DNA from: Verrucomicrobiota bacterium
Lineage (GTDB): Bacteria > Verrucomicrobiota > Verrucomicrobiae > Chthoniobacterales > UBA10450
DNA: 12,831 nucleotides
Direction: 5' to 3'
NCBI GenBank assembly: GCA_005887855.1
Contig: VBQB01000102.1
Coordinates: 1-12,831 of the forward strand
Under the pieces are notes generated by a model. It was not told the DNA's origin, did not search any database, and saw only the letters and a program-made list of their open reading frames with translations. This document shows, one piece after another, positions 8,011 through 12,831 of this stretch. How positions within the stretch are numbered: position 1 is the stretch's first letter; each line of letters begins with the position of its first letter. A program made the position numbers and the translations under genes.

Positions 8011-9459
8011 ATGTTTCATTTTAAGAAAGTGCGGACTCGGCTCGTGTTGCTCGCGCGCTCTCTGATCTTTCCCGCGGCCAGTGAACGCCGTGGCAGAATG
8101 ACGAAATCCGAATCAATGACAAATGACGAAACGCGAAGCATAGCTCTTTATCATTCTGGCTCCGGCATTTTTTCGTCATTCGTCATTCGAGTTTCATCAT
8201 TCCTTGTAATCTCTCTGTCGATCGTTCTCCCGGCCAGCCAGGCCGCGGACAATCTCGGGATTCTCGGCGCACATCCAAAGTGGGCGGTATTAGAAAATTA
8301 TCAGGAAACAATTACTCACGATGAGTTTGCCCGATTGATTCAGGGCGTTTATTGCACACACGGTTTCGCCCCTGATTTGATCGAAATAAGCGAGAAGACT
8401 GCACGCATCTTGACGAATCGCGAGGCGCAAAAGTTTTTCACGTTGCGGTTTGCTAAAGACGACGCCTCACGCGAGCCGATACCGCGACTTTGGCGTGCCG
8501 CGGAATCTTTGCCACCCGCGAAACAGGAAAAGCCGCTCTCGAGTCTGCGGATCGCACTCGACCCGGGTCACCTCGGCGGCAAATGGGCTAAGATGGAAGA
8601 ACGCTGGTTTCAAGTCGGGGCAACCCCGCCGGTGGAGGAAGGCGATTTGACGTTGCGCGTGGCTCGGCTCTTGGCGCCGCGCCTCCGAAAATTGGGTGCG
8701 AAAGTCTTCTTTGTCCGAAACAGCGACGAGCCAATCACGCCGAAACGTCCCGACGATTTCAAGGAGCTCGCGAGAAGGATTCTGATTAAAAATGGCGTGC
8801 CACAACCGCGGGTGGACGTTCTCGATGCAAGCGATCCCGAAAAAGAGCAAACAATTCGCTGGCAGAGTGAAATCTTGTTCTACCGCTACAGCGAGATTCG
8901 ACGGCGGGCGGCACTCGTGGACTTCAAATTGCATCCCGATCTGGTGCTTTGTTTGCATTTCAATGCCGAAGGCTGGGGCGACCCGAACGCCCCGACATTG
9001 ATTGACACCAATCATCTTCATCTGCTCGTCAACGGTTCTTATTTGAAGGACGAGCTCGAATTCGACGATGAACGTTTCGAAATGATCCGGCGACTCTTGA
9101 GCCGCGCTTATGACGAAGAATTGCCGCTGGCCGACACCATTGCTGGCGCAATGGCTCGCGAGACTAAGTTGCCTCCCTACGAATACCCGACCACGAAAAG
9201 CACGACCAAAGTCGGCACGAGCGGTTATGTTTATGCGCGCAATTTGCTCGCGACGCGGCTTTATCGTTGTCCGGTTGTTTATTGCGAACCGTACGTCATG
9301 AACAGCAACGATGTGTTCGCGCGTATTCAAGCTGGGGATTACGAAGGAACGCGCAACGCTAACGGCGTGGAACGCAAAAGCATTTTTCGCGAATACGCCG
9401 ACAGCGTGGTCGATGGCCTGGTCGAATACTATCGCAACGCGCGAGGTCGGGGCGATTGA
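8011..9459 (+). CDS. N-acetylmuramoyl-L-alanine amidase (Amidase_3 family), exported
   Basis: The zinc enzyme cleaves the amide bond between N-acetylmuramic acid and the stem peptide, for wall remodelling or daughter-cell separation. From the ATG at 8011 the product has 482 residues. Zinc ligands are H187 (ALDPGHLGG), E210 (EEGDLTLRVA) and H316 (VLCLHFNAEGW). The catalytic Glu is E426 (PVVYCEPYVMNSNDVFARI). The E210-H316 stretch is about 40 residues longer than in small Amidase_3 domains and is charged and helical-looking. The N-terminus is odd. MFHFKKVRTRLVLLARSLIF looks like one signal peptide. A second hydrophobic segment, FVIRVSSFLVISLSIVLPAS ending QA, lies 70 residues on, and a palindromic repeat (8096-8203) lies between and within them. 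Alternative starts are ATG 8098 and 8116, which would keep only the second segment. The gene is divergent from the YmdB gene and convergent with aroB. Confidence 0.88.
   Translation: MFHFKKVRTRLVLLARSLIFPAASERRGRMTKSESMTNDETRSIALYHSGSGIFSSFVIRVSSFLVISLSIVLPASQAADNLGILGAHPKWAVLENYQETITHDEFARLIQGVYCTHGFAPDLIEISEKTARILTNREAQKFFTLRFAKDDASREPIPRLWRAAESLPPAKQEKPLSSLRIALDPGHLGGKWAKMEERWFQVGATPPVEEGDLTLRVARLLAPRLRKLGAKVFFVRNSDEPITPKRPDDFKELARRILIKNGVPQPRVDVLDASDPEKEQTIRWQSEILFYRYSEIRRRAALVDFKLHPDLVLCLHFNAEGWGDPNAPTLIDTNHLHLLVNGSYLKDELEFDDERFEMIRRLLSRAYDEELPLADTIAGAMARETKLPPYEYPTTKSTTKVGTSGYVYARNLLATRLYRCPVVYCEPYVMNSNDVFARIQAGDYEGTRNANGVERKSIFREYADSVVDGLVEYYRNARGRGD
8096..8203. repeat. palindromic repeat inside the amidase N-terminus
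   Basis: The left arm (about 8096-8131) carries AATGACGAA-like words; the right arm (about 8168-8203) is nearly its reverse complement, with TTCGTCATTCGTCATTCGAG. Aligning the left arm with the reverse complement of the right arm gives about 80% identity over about 36 bases, around a loop of about 37 bases. The frame stays open across it, encoding MTKSES, MTNDET and SSFVIRVSSF, so part of the signal peptide is repeat-derived. I recall similar peptide strings at gene starts in related genomes, but could not check. Confidence 0.65.
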
Positions 9460-9476
9460 TCTCAACCGCCCGCTTT

Positions 9477-9523
9477 GTAGGGCGTTTCTGTGAAACGCCT
9501 GGCGTCTGACACAGACGCCCTAA
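9477..9523. repeat. REP-like inverted pair (BIME-type) between convergent genes
   Basis: Plus-strand unit: GTAG (9477-9480), GGCGTTTC, loop TGT, GAAACGCC (to 9499). Minus-strand unit: TTAG (9523-9520), GGCGTCTG, loop TGT, CAGACGCC (to 9501). Both stems are perfect 8-bp pairs and one base separates them. The element starts 18 bp after the amidase stop and overlaps the aroB stop codon (9520-9522). Its position between convergent genes suits a bidirectional transcription end, although there is no T-run. Confidence 0.75.
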
Positions 9524-10641
9524 AGTTGATCAATCGCTTCGCGAATATCTTCCATTGTCACATCGCTCGATAAGTGGGCTGAACCGATTGTCGATGTAAC
9601 GACAAACTGAATTTTTCCGCCCTCGAATTTCTTATCGTACGGAAGCGCGCCAAAGATCTTCTCGCGTGGAAAATTTGCCGGCAAATGCGTCGGCAAATCA
9701 AACCGTCGCAATAGATCGACGATCGCATCCCGCTGATCGCAAGGAAGCCCGGCTCTTTTAGTTGAGATGGCACAGGCGGCCGCAATCCCGAGACTCACGG
9801 CTTCGCCGTGAAGAAATTCCTGGTAATCGCCAGCGCGCTCGATCGCGTGGCCAACGGTGTGACCGAAATTAAGAATCGCGCGTTTGCCGGTGCGATCATG
9901 TTCGTCTTTCGCCACGATTTTCGATTTTATCTCGATGTTGCGACGAATCAGAGATTGTAGCGCAAGCGTCTCGCTTGCGCCTCCACGCACACGCAAGCCG
10001 GAGGCTCGCGCTACGTCTTCGAACATTTTCACATCGGCGATCACAGCGTGCTTGATGATTTCGGCGAATCCCTGATTGAACTCGCGCCGCGGCAACGTTT
10101 TCAGAACATCGACATCATCAATCACGAGCGATGGATGATGAACTGCGCCGAGCAAGTTTTTTCCATCGCGCGTATTCGCTCCGGTTTTCCCGCCGATTGA
10201 GCTGTCCACCATCGCGAGCAGCGTCGTTGGGATCTGCACGTGCGGAATTCGACGATGATAAATCGCCGCGACGAATCCGGAAATATCTCCGATCACCCCA
10301 CCGCCAAGTCCGATAGCGAACGATTGCCGATCTAAGCCGGCCCCGATCATTTGATCGCAAATCGCGCCGACTTGATCGAGCGTTTTCGATTTCTCGCCGG
10401 CAGGAATCGTGATCAGCGTCGGGCGAAAATCGGCGCGCGTTAGACTGTTAATGACTTGCTGTCCAACGAGGGTGGCAACATTGATGTCGGAGATAACGGC
10501 GCATCGACCGGAGAAGCCGATAGTCCGGCAGCGCTCTCCGATCTCATGCAACAAATGCTCGCCAATCAGCGCGTGATAGTGGCGGTCACCGACAGAGATG
10601 ATGATCGCATCAACCGATTGTTCTACTTTGTCGGATCCCAA
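9520..10641 (-). CDS. aroB: 3-dehydroquinate synthase
   Basis: AroB is the second enzyme of the shikimate pathway, turning DAHP into 3-dehydroquinate with NAD+ and a divalent metal in the cytoplasm. The 373-residue product shows IPAGEKSKTLDQ, IGLGGGVIGDISGFVA, IPTTLLAMVDSSIGGKTGAN, KNLLGAVHHP, AEIIKHAVIAD, AKDEHDRTG, AILNFGHTVGHAIE and HGEAVSLGIA. These include the metal and substrate ligands of the family (E of AEIIKH, H of GHTVGH, H of HGEA). The stretch between MFEDV and LIRRNIEIK is encoded largely by a palindromic element (9957-10014) and reads ARASGLRVRGGASETLALQS. This linker is only about three residues longer than in E. coli AroB, so activity is probably kept. The start is TTG at 10641, overlapping the upstream prepilin-like gene by 19 bp, which suggests translational coupling; no clear Shine-Dalgarno is visible. 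The gene is convergent with the amidase. Confidence 0.95.
   Translation of the reverse strand: MGSDKVEQSVDAIIISVGDRHYHALIGEHLLHEIGERCRTIGFSGRCAVISDINVATLVGQQVINSLTRADFRPTLITIPAGEKSKTLDQVGAICDQMIGAGLDRQSFAIGLGGGVIGDISGFVAAIYHRRIPHVQIPTTLLAMVDSSIGGKTGANTRDGKNLLGAVHHPSLVIDDVDVLKTLPRREFNQGFAEIIKHAVIADVKMFEDVARASGLRVRGGASETLALQSLIRRNIEIKSKIVAKDEHDRTGKRAILNFGHTVGHAIERAGDYQEFLHGEAVSLGIAAACAISTKRAGLPCDQRDAIVDLLRRFDLPTHLPANFPREKIFGALPYDKKFEGGKIQFVVTSTIGSAHLSSDVTMEDIREAIDQL
9957..10014. repeat. REP-like inverted pair embedded in frame in aroB
   Basis: Plus-strand unit: GTAG (9957-9960), CGCAAGCG, loop TCT, CGCTTGCG (to 9979), a perfect stem extendable to 9 bp. Minus-strand unit: GTAG (10014-10011), CGCGAGCC, loop TCC, GGCTTGCG (to 9992), with one mismatch. 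A 12-nt spacer lies between. The outer GTAGCGC/GCGCTAC ends are perfect inverted repeats. It encodes about 19 residues of AroB without breaking the frame. Confidence 0.75.
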
Positions 10642-11306
10642 TGTTTCAGACCGAGCGGATCGGACCCTGTATCCTGAAATGAGCCTAGGTCAGTGCTTGG
10701 GCCAAATTTCAACGTTTCGACATGAGAATCGCAGAACAACGCATTGATTTGAGTGCCATTGCTGTGAGTTCCCGTTGTCTCGCCGGCACCGCCGCCTGCG
10801 GGTAAGTCCGGCGCGCTCGTGGCAGTGCCAGCCCATGATGCAGCGCTTTTAGGGTCTCCGTTGTACGTTGGGGCCATTAAAATTGTGGACGCGGGAGAAA
10901 CAACCTTTGCCATGCTCCCCTCGATCCCCGGCGGCGTTGCGGTCGCTGCGATATACATGTTTGCGTTGATGCTGTAGCTAACCGGTGCCAAATCGGTTTC
11001 CAAACTGGCTCGGCTATCGAAGGGCGACTGGAAAATTTTTCTGGTTGAAACGTATTTCGGATATAGGACGGGTGCCGTAGTCGTACCTGGCCAGATGTTT
11101 GTTGCAGGAAGAACCTGGTCGTTATCGTTCAGATAAGTCTGAATGGCGAGGCCGACTTGGCGCAGGTTGTTCATATCTTTCGTTATTTTCGCGCGTTCCA
11201 GAATGCTTGTGTAAGTCGGGTAAGCAATCGAGAGGAGGATCGCGATCACCGCGATCACCACAAGCAATTCGATCAAAGTAAACGCCCGCGAGGAATTTTT
11301 GGTCAT
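10623..11306 (-). CDS. type II secretion/type IV pilin-like prepilin
   Basis: The 227-residue protein begins with a class III prepilin leader. MTKNSSRA is followed by the hydrophobic helix FTLIELLVVIAVIAILLSIA; cleavage by a PilD-type peptidase would fall before F9, leaving Glu5 (E13) of the mature chain. The -1 residue is Ala where Gly is usual, which may slow processing. The rest fits the periplasmic head of pseudopilin-like proteins abundant in Verrucomicrobiota and Planctomycetota, with a Gly/Thr-rich region and a degenerate C-terminal signature: THSNG, INALFCDSHVETL, where DGH is more usual. Such proteins may be minor pseudopilins or surface proteins; the exact role is unknown. The start is the ATG at 11304-11306. 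It overlaps aroB by 19 bp on the same strand, a pairing with no obvious functional sense. It is divergent from the DUF4870 gene. Confidence 0.85.
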   Translation of the reverse strand: MTKNSSRAFTLIELLVVIAVIAILLSIAYPTYTSILERAKITKDMNNLRQVGLAIQTYLNDNDQVLPATNIWPGTTTAPVLYPKYVSTRKIFQSPFDSRASLETDLAPVSYSINANMYIAATATPPGIEGSMAKVVSPASTILMAPTYNGDPKSAASWAGTATSAPDLPAGGGAGETTGTHSNGTQINALFCDSHVETLKFGPSTDLGSFQDTGSDPLGLKHWDPTK

Positions 11307-11387
11307 TGGATGGGTGCGCTAACGCGTCACCATATTGGTTCCGACCGCGCAGTGGAAGCGAAATCGAGTTGGGCGGTGGAAGATTCC

Positions 11388-11416
11388 TTGACAAACCATC
11401 TCCAAGTTTGTGTATG
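11388..11416 (+). promoter_or_regulatory. weak promoter candidate for the DUF4870 gene
   Basis: A perfect TTGACA (11388-11393) is followed after 17 bp by TGTATG (11411-11416), which matches TATAAT at only three positions. Transcription would start at about 11422-11424, on the ATG of the next gene (11423), implying a leaderless or nearly leaderless mRNA. No Shine-Dalgarno is seen before that ATG, which is consistent, but the -10 match is poor. Confidence 0.3.
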
Positions 11417-11422
11417 TAGGCC

Positions 11423-11863
11423 ATGCCCGACCCAGTTGATCCAACTCAACCGCCACCTCCGCCGAGTCCGGAACCCGAGGCAAGAGGAACATCCACGTCG
11501 ACCGGTTTGCCTTCGAACGTGGCCGCAGCCATCGCCTGCATTCCGCTAATCGGGGGCATCATTTTTTATATCCTGGAAAAGCGCGACAGCTTTGTCCGTT
11601 TTTACGCCATGCAATCGATCATTCTTGGCGGTGCCTGGCTCCTTTTCTATATCGCGGCATCCATTGTTGGTCTCATTTTCAGGTGGATTCCGGTTGTCGC
11701 CGGCGTTTTGGATTTTTTTTGGGGAATCATCGTCGCAATCGTTCAAATTGTCGTGGTCGTTCTCTGGATCGTTGCGACGGTAAAAGCATTCACGAAGGTT
11801 CGCTGGGAAATTCCATACATCGGGCCGATTGCCCGCAGGCAAATGGAAGGCGGCGCAGCTTGA
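11423..11863 (+). CDS. DUF4870/Tic20-like small membrane protein
   Basis: This 146-residue protein has a Pro-rich N-terminus (PPPPPSPEPE at about 10-19) and three predicted membrane helices at about 33-51, 64-87 and 90-121. The signature FYILEKRDSFVRFYAMQSII after the first helix and IPYIGPIA near the end are typical of DUF4870 (UPF0132, Tic20-like) proteins. The family's biochemical function is not established, so none is proposed. The start is the ATG at 11423, with no Shine-Dalgarno in the preceding 20 bases. The gene is divergent from the prepilin-like gene (116 bp between starts) and convergent with holA, with a REP-like pair filling the gap. Confidence 0.85.
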   Translation: MPDPVDPTQPPPPPSPEPEARGTSTSTGLPSNVAAAIACIPLIGGIIFYILEKRDSFVRFYAMQSIILGGAWLLFYIAASIVGLIFRWIPVVAGVLDFFWGIIVAIVQIVVVVLWIVATVKAFTKVRWEIPYIGPIARRQMEGGAA

Positions 11864-11867
11864 TTTG

Positions 11868-11951
11868 TTGTAGCCGCTTCGCTGTGCGAAGCGCGACGCT
11901 GACTTGTTAATCAACCGAGCGCCAACGCCGCCCACAGGGCGGCGGCTACAA
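11868..11951. repeat. REP-like inverted pair (BIME-type) filling the DUF4870-holA gap
   Basis: The outer ends TTGTAGCCGC (11868-11877) and GCGGCTACAA (11942-11951) are perfect inverted repeats. Plus-strand unit: GTAG (11870-11873), one C, CGCTTCGC, loop TGT, GCGAAGCG (to 11893). Minus-strand unit: GTAG (11949-11946), one C, CGCCGCCC, loop TGT, GGGCGGCG (to 11926). A 32-nt spacer lies between. It starts 4 bp after the DUF4870 stop and ends 2 bp before the holA stop, so it occupies essentially the whole convergent gap. Confidence 0.75.
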
Positions 11952-11953
11952 AA

Positions 11954-12831
11954 TTATGTTCGCCCCAGCAGCTTCACCACCACCTCGGTTAAAATCAGCT
12001 CGTGATCGAGCTGCGTGGTGACGAGCTGGAGATTTGCGTCAAGACACGCTTGCATTGCCGCGATCAGTTGCGTCGTCTGGAACTGATGCGCGTGCTGGGC
12101 TGCAATCCCCAGCGCGTACGCATTGATCGAGCCATCCTTCCTGCGCGGCAAATGCGCCGTTGCCTCGTCGGCCAAGCGATTAATTGCCGAGATAAATTGA
12201 AACGGCGAGTGAGGACGCGGGAGACGATGACGTTCCATTAAATCCTTCGCCAGCAACAAATTTCGGATCGTCGGAACGATCGCAACAAGCAGGATGCCGA
12301 TCGCGCTTTCGCCCTGATCCAGCAAACGCCGCACAAGCGTAAGCGCGAGTTCGAGATCGCGCATCGCGAGCGCGTTGCTCAGCTCGAAAATCACGCCGGC
12401 GCGGGAGAGCGGCACGATTTCCCGGACAAGATCGACATGGACTGCGCGATCTTTTCCCAGAAAGACATCGATCTTCTCGAGCTCGTTCTCGATCTGCCGC
12501 GTGTCGCCGCCGGTGAGTAGCACGAACAAATCGAGCGCATCCTCATCGAATTGGAGTTTTCTTTTTTTGGCACGACGCCGGGCGATTTCGGTCGCTTCCT
12601 CCTCCCACCCGCTACGGCCGGAATCCAGCCGATCAAAGACCTGTAGCTCCGCTCGTTTCACCAGTGATCTGTAAAACGAACGGCGCTTGTCCACTTCCGT
12701 AGCGCTGATCAAGAATGTGATGTCAGGCCCGACACCGCTCTCGAGCAAATCAGATAATTCTTCCAGAACCGATTGAACGCTCGCGGCGCGGCCGATCGCA
12801 TTGTCGCCGAGAAAATTCGCGTTCTTCAACC
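11954..12831 (-). CDS. holA: DNA polymerase III delta subunit, 5' end beyond the window
   Basis: The delta subunit is the part of the clamp loader that opens the beta sliding clamp. About 292 C-terminal residues are visible; the frame stays open to the window edge, so roughly the first 50 residues are missing from a usual length near 340. The TTG at 12829 is read as an internal Leu of LKNANFLGD and not as a start. Family features are the AAA+-like core with VGPDITFLISATEVDKRRSF, the helical motif LLTGGDTRQIENELEKIDVF, and the C-terminal collar domain (LSNALAMRDLELALTLVRRL, GILLVAIVPTIRNLLLAKDL, and ILTEVVVKLLGRT at the end). The gene converges on the DUF4870 gene with a REP-like pair between them. 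Call is by overall pattern; the Walker-like N-terminus is out of view. Confidence 0.88.
   Translation of the reverse strand, partial: LKNANFLGDNAIGRAASVQSVLEELSDLLESGVGPDITFLISATEVDKRRSFYRSLVKRAELQVFDRLDSGRSGWEEEATEIARRRAKKRKLQFDEDALDLFVLLTGGDTRQIENELEKIDVFLGKDRAVHVDLVREIVPLSRAGVIFELSNALAMRDLELALTLVRRLLDQGESAIGILLVAIVPTIRNLLLAKDLMERHRLPRPHSPFQFISAINRLADEATAHLPRRKDGSINAYALGIAAQHAHQFQTTQLIAAMQACLDANLQLVTTQLDHELILTEVVVKLLGRT

Follow-up and report, generated by a model that had tools for sequence, protein, structure and literature searches.

Inverted Pairs of GTAG-Headed Hairpins

The window, a whole stretch of 12,831 nt from a Verrucomicrobiota bacterium (contig VBQB01000102.1) to which all coordinates refer, contains three inverted pairs of short hairpins, most of them headed by GTAG. 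These pairs are dimers of GTAG-type repetitive extragenic palindromes (REPs), known as bacterial interspersed mosaic elements (BIMEs) or REP doublets forming hairpins (REPINs), in a verrucomicrobium resembling Candidatus Udaeobacter, from a group of soil bacteria. Pair 1 is located between the convergent genes of an amidase and 3-dehydroquinate synthase (aroB), and pair 2 inside aroB. The neighbors of pair 3, a small gene and holA, are convergent as well.

The six units were read directly and by a script, and each consists of a head, a stem of 8 bp and a loop of 3 nt. In pair 1, the left unit (9477..9499, + strand, family F1a) is GTAG followed by GGCGTTTC/TGT/GAAACGCC, and the right unit (9501..9523, − strand, family F1b) is TTAG followed by GGCGTCTG/TGT/CAGACGCC; the TAG of this head is the stop codon of aroB. 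In pair 2, which lies within aroB, the left unit (9957..9979, + strand, family F7b) is GTAG followed by CGCAAGCG/TCT/CGCTTGCG, and the right unit (9992..10014, − strand, family F7a) is GTAG followed by CGCGAGCC/TCC/GGCTTGCG, with one G.T pair in the stem. Both units of pair 3 carry one unpaired C after GTAG; the left unit (11870..11893, + strand, family F4a) continues with CGCTTCGC/TGT/GCGAAGCG, and the right unit (11926..11949, − strand, family F4b) with CGCCGCCC/TGT/GGGCGGCG. The initial annotation had described the six half-units in three inverted pairs, the loops (TGT four times, TCT and TCC once each), the single TTAG head beside five GTAG heads, and the offset C in the last pair, and all of these were confirmed. 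The third pair starts at 11870, not at 11868. Neither the in-frame position of pair 2 inside aroB nor the use of a REP head as the aroB stop codon was part of that annotation.

A relaxed scan of the window detected 6 GTAG/TTAG units; 60 first-order shuffles averaged 0.2 and yielded 3 at most. When the + strand was folded as single-stranded DNA, the z values were −6.4 for pair 1, −2.8 for pair 2 and −4.9 for pair 3. The search against Rfam gave no match.

The neighboring genes were assigned mainly with Pfam. The N-acetylmuramoyl-L-alanine amidase (Amidase_3) gene occupies 8128..9459 on the + strand, with a start position of our choice. The aroB gene (9520..10641, − strand), supported by Pfam and by relatives in PDB, hosts pair 2, and its 3′ end is the site of pair 1. 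The small gene (11423..11863, + strand), an open reading frame (ORF) provisionally labeled DUF4870, shows no Pfam match. The gene called holA, for the delta subunit of DNA polymerase III (11954..12829, − strand), was recognized by a Pfam match to the C-terminal domain. A decayed fourth REP-like hairpin of family F5, GGGCGATTGA..CAACCGCCC, was read by eye at 9450..9471 on the + strand, and it contains the amidase stop codon TGA (9457-9459). F5 units occur near the same place in several relatives.

Sequence Families in Related Genomes

The AroB protein of the window shows 98% identity to a metagenome protein. Thirty-five genomes around a Candidatus Udaeobacter assembly were sampled as relatives, and an AroB match was obtained from 27 of them; the best match per genome shows 68-79% identity in 26 cases and 42% in one. 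The gene order amidase-aroB-pilin-small gene-holA recurs in those relatives where the stretch is long enough.

For the family search, a single unit from each pair served as the pattern, with up to 2 mismatches for F1a and F4a and up to 3 for F7a. F1a (pair 1) and F4a (pair 3) are present in all 35 genomes, with 1 to 24 and 1 to 36 copies per genome, respectively, while F7a (pair 2) is present in 32 of the 35 with 0 to 47 copies. The reversed patterns of F1a, F4a and F7a gave 0 copies in each of the 35 genomes. Inverted pairs, the arrangement of all three cases in the window, are also found in the relatives.

Among the 64 two-mismatch copies of F4 listed, 33 have both changes across one base pair, against about 3% expected by position, and 31 of these 33 are Watson-Crick pairs. 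Base pairing is therefore maintained, within recognizable sequence families. The pair counts showing 100% pairing are largely a product of construction, as most units were picked for perfect stems, and they were not used as evidence.

The dinucleotide YT directly precedes GTAG in 73 of 76 units of F1, 31/31 of F2, 22/24 of F3, 48/49 of F4 and 20/20 of S1, and it is found in none of 14 units of F5 and none of 26 of F7. This pattern suggests that the families have their own cutting sites. The initial annotation had considered the hairpins one family with free sequence in which structure alone is kept. Its observation that the stems differ and yet pair stands for these six units, but each pair belongs to a sequence family of its own, so that structure-only conservation does not hold. 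A single structural family with free stems was rejected on the recurring stem families and the family-specific bases before GTAG.

In the aroB loci (107,778 bases), GTAG precedes 35 of the 92 perfect 8-3-8 hairpins, while the second most frequent tetramer precedes 5; these counts are not independent because the loci are orthologous. The Markov control contained 6 hairpins, of which the five printed do not follow GTAG. A chance origin of the window units was rejected on the shuffle mean and on this excess of GTAG-headed hairpins. In 20 contigs picked by number, one of which (L125) holds aroB, 4 of 20 perfect hairpins follow GTAG.

A structure model matched 18-101 times per genome at E ≤ 1 in all 35 genomes, which is a lower bound with at most 150 candidates scored in each. 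The initial annotation had suggested a dense population from the three pairs within 2.5 kb; judged by these counts, the six units are a local cluster.

RAYT Transposases in Related Genomes

Matches to the Pfam domain Y1_Tnp were found in 33 of the 35 genomes, and they include strong ones of IS200-like length and weaker ones similar to REP-associated tyrosine transposases (RAYTs, also called TnpA_REP). Six of eight RAYTs passed the cut-off of 80 bits for the NCBIfam family REP_Tyr_transpos (NF047646), and the other two scored 69 and 77. The one RAYT compared with PDB matches TnpArep (4er8) at 1e-11.

Of the 46 standalone RAYT ORFs that the fetched loci contain, 23 are bracketed by GTAG units whose heads point outward. 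Both flanking units could be named in 12 of these 23, and they belong to the same family in all 12. For these and the site counts below, the families were separated with F4 assigned before F2. RAYTs lie between two units of F4, to which pair 3 belongs, in L267, L102 and L269, and L165 and L100 have F4 beside the RAYT on a single side. The early assignment of the hairpins to GTAG REP/BIME elements with a RAYT thus agrees with their dispersal, the distribution of Y1_Tnp and the REP-flanked RAYTs. The nearest case to an F7-flanked RAYT is seen in L294 and L297, with GTAG-CGCACGCG. In these two loci, the RAYT reading frame continues in frame through its own 3′ terminal REP.

Occupancy of Orthologous Sites

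The aroB-amidase site, that of pair 1, contains GTAG units in 29 of 33 loci, the window included. F1 occupies 12 loci, and the others contain F2, F3, F4, F5 or S1, besides one unclassified pair; the F3 label in L107 is doubtful. The gap between the two genes is 4-7 bp in three of the four unit-free loci, against 38-145 bp when filled. The gap of L102, at 734 bp, holds a complete F4 REP-RAYT-REP unit. Filled and empty orthologous sites thus coexist among the relatives. The fourth locus free of GTAG units, L099, carries other inverted repeats. At the 3′ end of aroB in L099 and L116, inverted repeats are headed by CAAGGAG, without GTAG, and they perhaps represent another element family at the same site.

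By our own reading, the stop codon of aroB is the TAG of a REP head in 26 of the 35 loci where the end of aroB was resolved; in the window the head is TTAG. The AroB proteins ended by a REP terminate at the same codon as those in REP-free loci. The site of pair 3 is filled in 10 of 22 loci, by five families. Similar variation was read by ourselves at other gene ends. The end of gatB in relatives has F7 heads, heads of other families, or neither, and that of carA has F4 in 5 and F5 in 3 of 30 loci, and neither in the rest. The coxB gene ends in F4, or F3 sits just past its stop codon, and F1 is present at a UlaG-like gene in 4 of the 28 loci resolved. Two other repeats, of the CACAGATGAACACAGATGAAACACAGAT and GTCATGTCGAGCGAAGTCGAGACATCTC types, recur in several loci after the UlaG-like gene (L359-L385) and after gatB (L420-L447).

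In-Frame REPs Inside aroB

Pair 2 is translated in frame within AroB as VARASGLRVRGGASETLALQ. A loop script resolved 23 aroB loci of the genus; one loop carries an insert in 18 of them and is short in the other 5. The scan recognized a REP unit in 13 of the 18 inserts. The other five (L096, L098, L106, L109 and L113) contain longer palindromic sequence by our own reading. The inserts are single units of the GGCAAGCG, GGCAGGCG and GGCAGCCG types, longer hairpins, or pairs like that of the window. No unit was found in 17 further aroB loci of the family (L170-L188 without L175 and L182), among which L173, L174 and L188 have other, longer AroB loops. A low-confidence AlphaFold model of AroB (mean pLDDT 63) would place the insert site between two helices.

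In a tree of AroB built without the loop, the loop types are scattered. This tree is unfit for counting insertions because of recombination or chimeric contigs. Among the proteins in it (P0001-P0120), identical loops are found on different backbones, which points to recombination within aroB or to chimeric contigs.

Interpretation and Alternative Explanations

The most probable reading (roughly 0.87) is that the three pairs represent three families of non-autonomous GTAG REP dimers, which occur in the same genomes as RAYT transposases; their mobilization and maintenance would be as follows. Each family would have moved, now or formerly, as a single-stranded hairpin through its own RAYT with HUH and Tyr motifs. 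The RAYT would recognize the GTAG foot and make its cut next to it, in five families following or inside YT. Fresh copies would be retained where they are harmless: at the final codon of a gene, with the stop codon supplied by the GTAG head, or in an enzyme loop, where translation would pass through the element without meeting a stop. Families would succeed one another at the same nucleotide. Whole RAYT genes survive in the enzyme-internal way in recG, carB, metH and alaS of the same clade. This proposal builds on the anatomy of the elements, the dispersal of the families, the family-matched REP-flanked RAYTs, the species-variable occupancy and the in-frame copies in aroB, all observed in relatives. 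Mobility would be indicated by orthologous sites filled in some species and empty in others.

Several points weigh against it. No movement event was observed. All population counts refer to relatives and not to the window's own genome, and the relatives are unnamed or draft assemblies from metagenomes, with a single genome representing each species. The family labels (F1, F2, F3, F4, F5, F7 and S1) are our own patterns. The excess of GTAG heads is modest in the same 20 contigs under the relaxed rule (11 units after GTAG and 9 after TGTA, with a mean of 1.6 per tetramer), though the TGTA units are perhaps the same ones with the register shifted by one base. Twelve of the 46 standalone RAYT ORFs, among which L292 is counted twice, have no GTAG unit on either side, and no RAYT flanked by F1 or F7 was found in the fetched loci.

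The explanation that survives best besides the proposed one concerns the choice of site. Insertion may be random, and the copies seen beyond stop codons may be the survivors of selection, with no preference for the stop codon itself; this has an appreciable, if minor, chance of being right. Harmless places are few, as the empty aroB-amidase gap is 4-7 bp in three loci. The head TAG, however, serves as the stop codon for 55 of the 149 GTAG units that lie close to where an ORF of 120 codons or more ends. Outside aroB loci it does so for 29 of 94, and 9 have a later stop in another frame; one third would be expected to be in frame (P ~7e-8). The counts include orthologs (coxB three times, the UlaG-like gene twice), a number of RAYT genes and antisense ORFs of doubtful status. 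A pre-existing GTAG as the insertion target was also considered, and REP-free ends already reading nnG-TAG were found by our own reading in carA (6) and the UlaG-like gene (3). A YT target with an element-borne GTAG fits the Leu-stop ends about equally, and it is in line with the CT cleavage reported in PMC8266576.

The hairpins could instead be bidirectional terminators or mRNA-protecting hairpins retained for their function, as the location of pairs 1 and 3 between convergent genes and the filling of the pair-1 site in 29 of 33 loci would fit. This is improbable, for pair 2 lies within coding sequence, the second convergent site is unit-free in 12 of 22 loci, and RAYT genes bear the same hairpins. 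A terminator scan of 9400-12050 yielded 4 candidates, against 3.3 in shuffles, and none equals any of the six hairpins, although one at 9467-9484 overlaps the start of pair 1. The hairpins may have acquired a terminator role later. A single REP lineage whose stems drift freely by compensatory change, without separate families, is very improbable, as near-identical copies of every window stem return in one genome after another and the families differ in the bases that precede GTAG, despite the compensatory variants within F4 and the related stems GGCAAGCG, GGCAGGCG, GGCAGCCG and CGCAAGCG of the right-hand aroB unit.

As GTAG REP dimers accompanied by RAYTs, the elements are real but ordinary in kind, in a phylum already known for such REPs (PMC3733652). 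Opitutus terrae was described there as highly enriched in GTAG REPs, including GTAG-20, and so the guess of the initial annotation that they are undescribed in this phylum does not hold. The GTAG REP families of that study share with the present ones the GTAG foot, stems mostly of 6-9 bp, short loops, dimers, placement at gene ends, the frequent supply of the TAG stop codon, the association with RAYTs, and intragenic copies, which most GTAG ones in O. terrae are. Different REPs at about the same site, as here, were reported for recB of two Xanthomonas species. The present stems are different, and one stop codon was traced through at least six families and one aroB copy across relatives. Rickettsia palindromic elements (RPEs), as treated in the same study, are also palindromic and in frame inside genes. 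CGTC repeats, including the intragenic RPE-4 and RPE-6, have no dedicated transposase according to that study, whereas here the transposase gene itself can be in frame in the host gene.

REP_Sm of Stenotrophomonas maltophilia shares the geometry of 23 nt with a perfect 8-bp stem and a 3-nt loop (PMC8266576). Its stems differ from the present ones. In the REP_Sm/TnpA_REP system, GTAG is important for binding and cleavage, and the cut occurs at CT; YT before GTAG in five families fits this cleavage. As in the REPINs of Pseudomonas fluorescens (PMC3116915), inverted REP pairs are the likely mobile unit; excision was seen there in the sequencing reads of one strain, while here only species were compared.

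Two features are less ordinary: the exact reuse of stop codons as one family follows another, and the presence of REPs and complete RAYTs read in frame within housekeeping genes. The choice of sites by REPs and their persistence are poorly understood. In this clade a single stop codon has hosted six or more REP families, and the same site also occurs empty or with a transposase gene, so that comparisons suffice to test target choice and turnover.

RAYT Genes in Frame Inside Housekeeping Genes

The in-frame life of REPs and RAYTs is exemplified on a small scale by pair 2 in aroB. Twenty-three loci were examined, chosen because the Y1_Tnp match, among the matches listed, lay in a very long open frame. 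Pfam placed Y1_Tnp within a housekeeping protein in all 23: RecG in 11 (L168, L169 and L448-L456), CarB in 8 (L166, L457-L462 and L466), MetH in 3 (L463-L465) and AlaS in 1 (L467). The HUH motif MP[DN]HxH is present in 22 and the Tyr motif YI..NP in 21 of the 23, and the HUH and Y..NP motifs are those of REP-type transposases in a survey of the TnpA_Y1 superfamily (PMC6006769). One of four embedded RAYTs tested exceeds the NF047646 cut-off, and the other three score 64-73 bits. The carB locus L457 lacks the C-terminal part. The metH frame L465:3-3692 contains two HUH and two Tyr motifs, apparently from two separate RAYT domains.

In the protein database, 1288 proteins of 522-1662 aa include this RAYT part at E ≤ 1e-10. 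In the 120 of them listed, RecG-type helicase domains occur in 108, AlaS domains in 10 and MetH domains in 2, and many were named RecG-like helicase/RayT by the Joint Genome Institute (JGI). No published description of in-frame RAYTs in housekeeping genes was found within the open-access literature. None was found in the accessible part of the TnpA_Y1 survey, which excluded a small number of proteins of unexpectedly great length, considering them fusions or misannotations (PMC6006769).

In all 11 RecG frames the insert occupies one position, preceding the conserved (P)xIIVGTHALL; the RAYTs there are of about three types, and the REPs on either side are read as protein (GSARVSR..., ...DACATQ). 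Three forms of RecG were found: 720 aa without the insert, 736 aa with REP-encoded ends only, and 933 aa with the RAYT. The recG gene is thus polymorphic for the RAYT insert, and the 736-aa state is the counterpart of the AroB protein in the window. Insert-free 720-aa RecG proteins show 95-99% identity to L168 over 85-86% of the 181 residues compared, and other 720-aa RecG proteins show 86-87% in the same comparison. L453 and L456 share 92% of the RecG body and 58% of the RAYT, and thus the RAYT type was swapped at the site. The left head is GGAG in place of GTAG in six of the nine RecG inserts printed, which may mark inserts no longer able to move.

Over 45 pairs of 10 sequences, the median ratio of nonsynonymous to synonymous differences (pN/pS) is lower in the RecG body (0.16) than in the RAYT core (0.31), with synonymous sites often saturated; L449, nearly identical to L448, was omitted. 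Between L448 and L450, which have one RAYT type, it is 0.14 for the RecG body and 0.16 for the RAYT core. The need of the domain to fold could suffice as the cause of this constraint. An AlphaFold model of RecG-RAYT is weak (mean pLDDT 58.5, pTM 0.37), with the RAYT core (~443-575) locally better than the linkers on its two sides.

It is conceivable, though on balance unlikely, that REP/RAYT elements of this clade live inside proteins, as REP pairs and as whole RAYTs in RecG, CarB, MetH and AlaS, and that some are now lasting domains. RecG-RAYT would then be a helicase with its own hairpin-cutting HUH nuclease under selection, and the loss of the GTAG head would mark trapped copies. An in-frame RAYT in an essential protein would protect a mobile element from loss without killing the host. 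By analogy, such RAYTs recall inteins.

The recG frames of L448 and L449, from the genomes G012 and G024, are 9 bases apart, and the aroB loops of these genomes are clearly different, which points to a recent transfer or a binning error.

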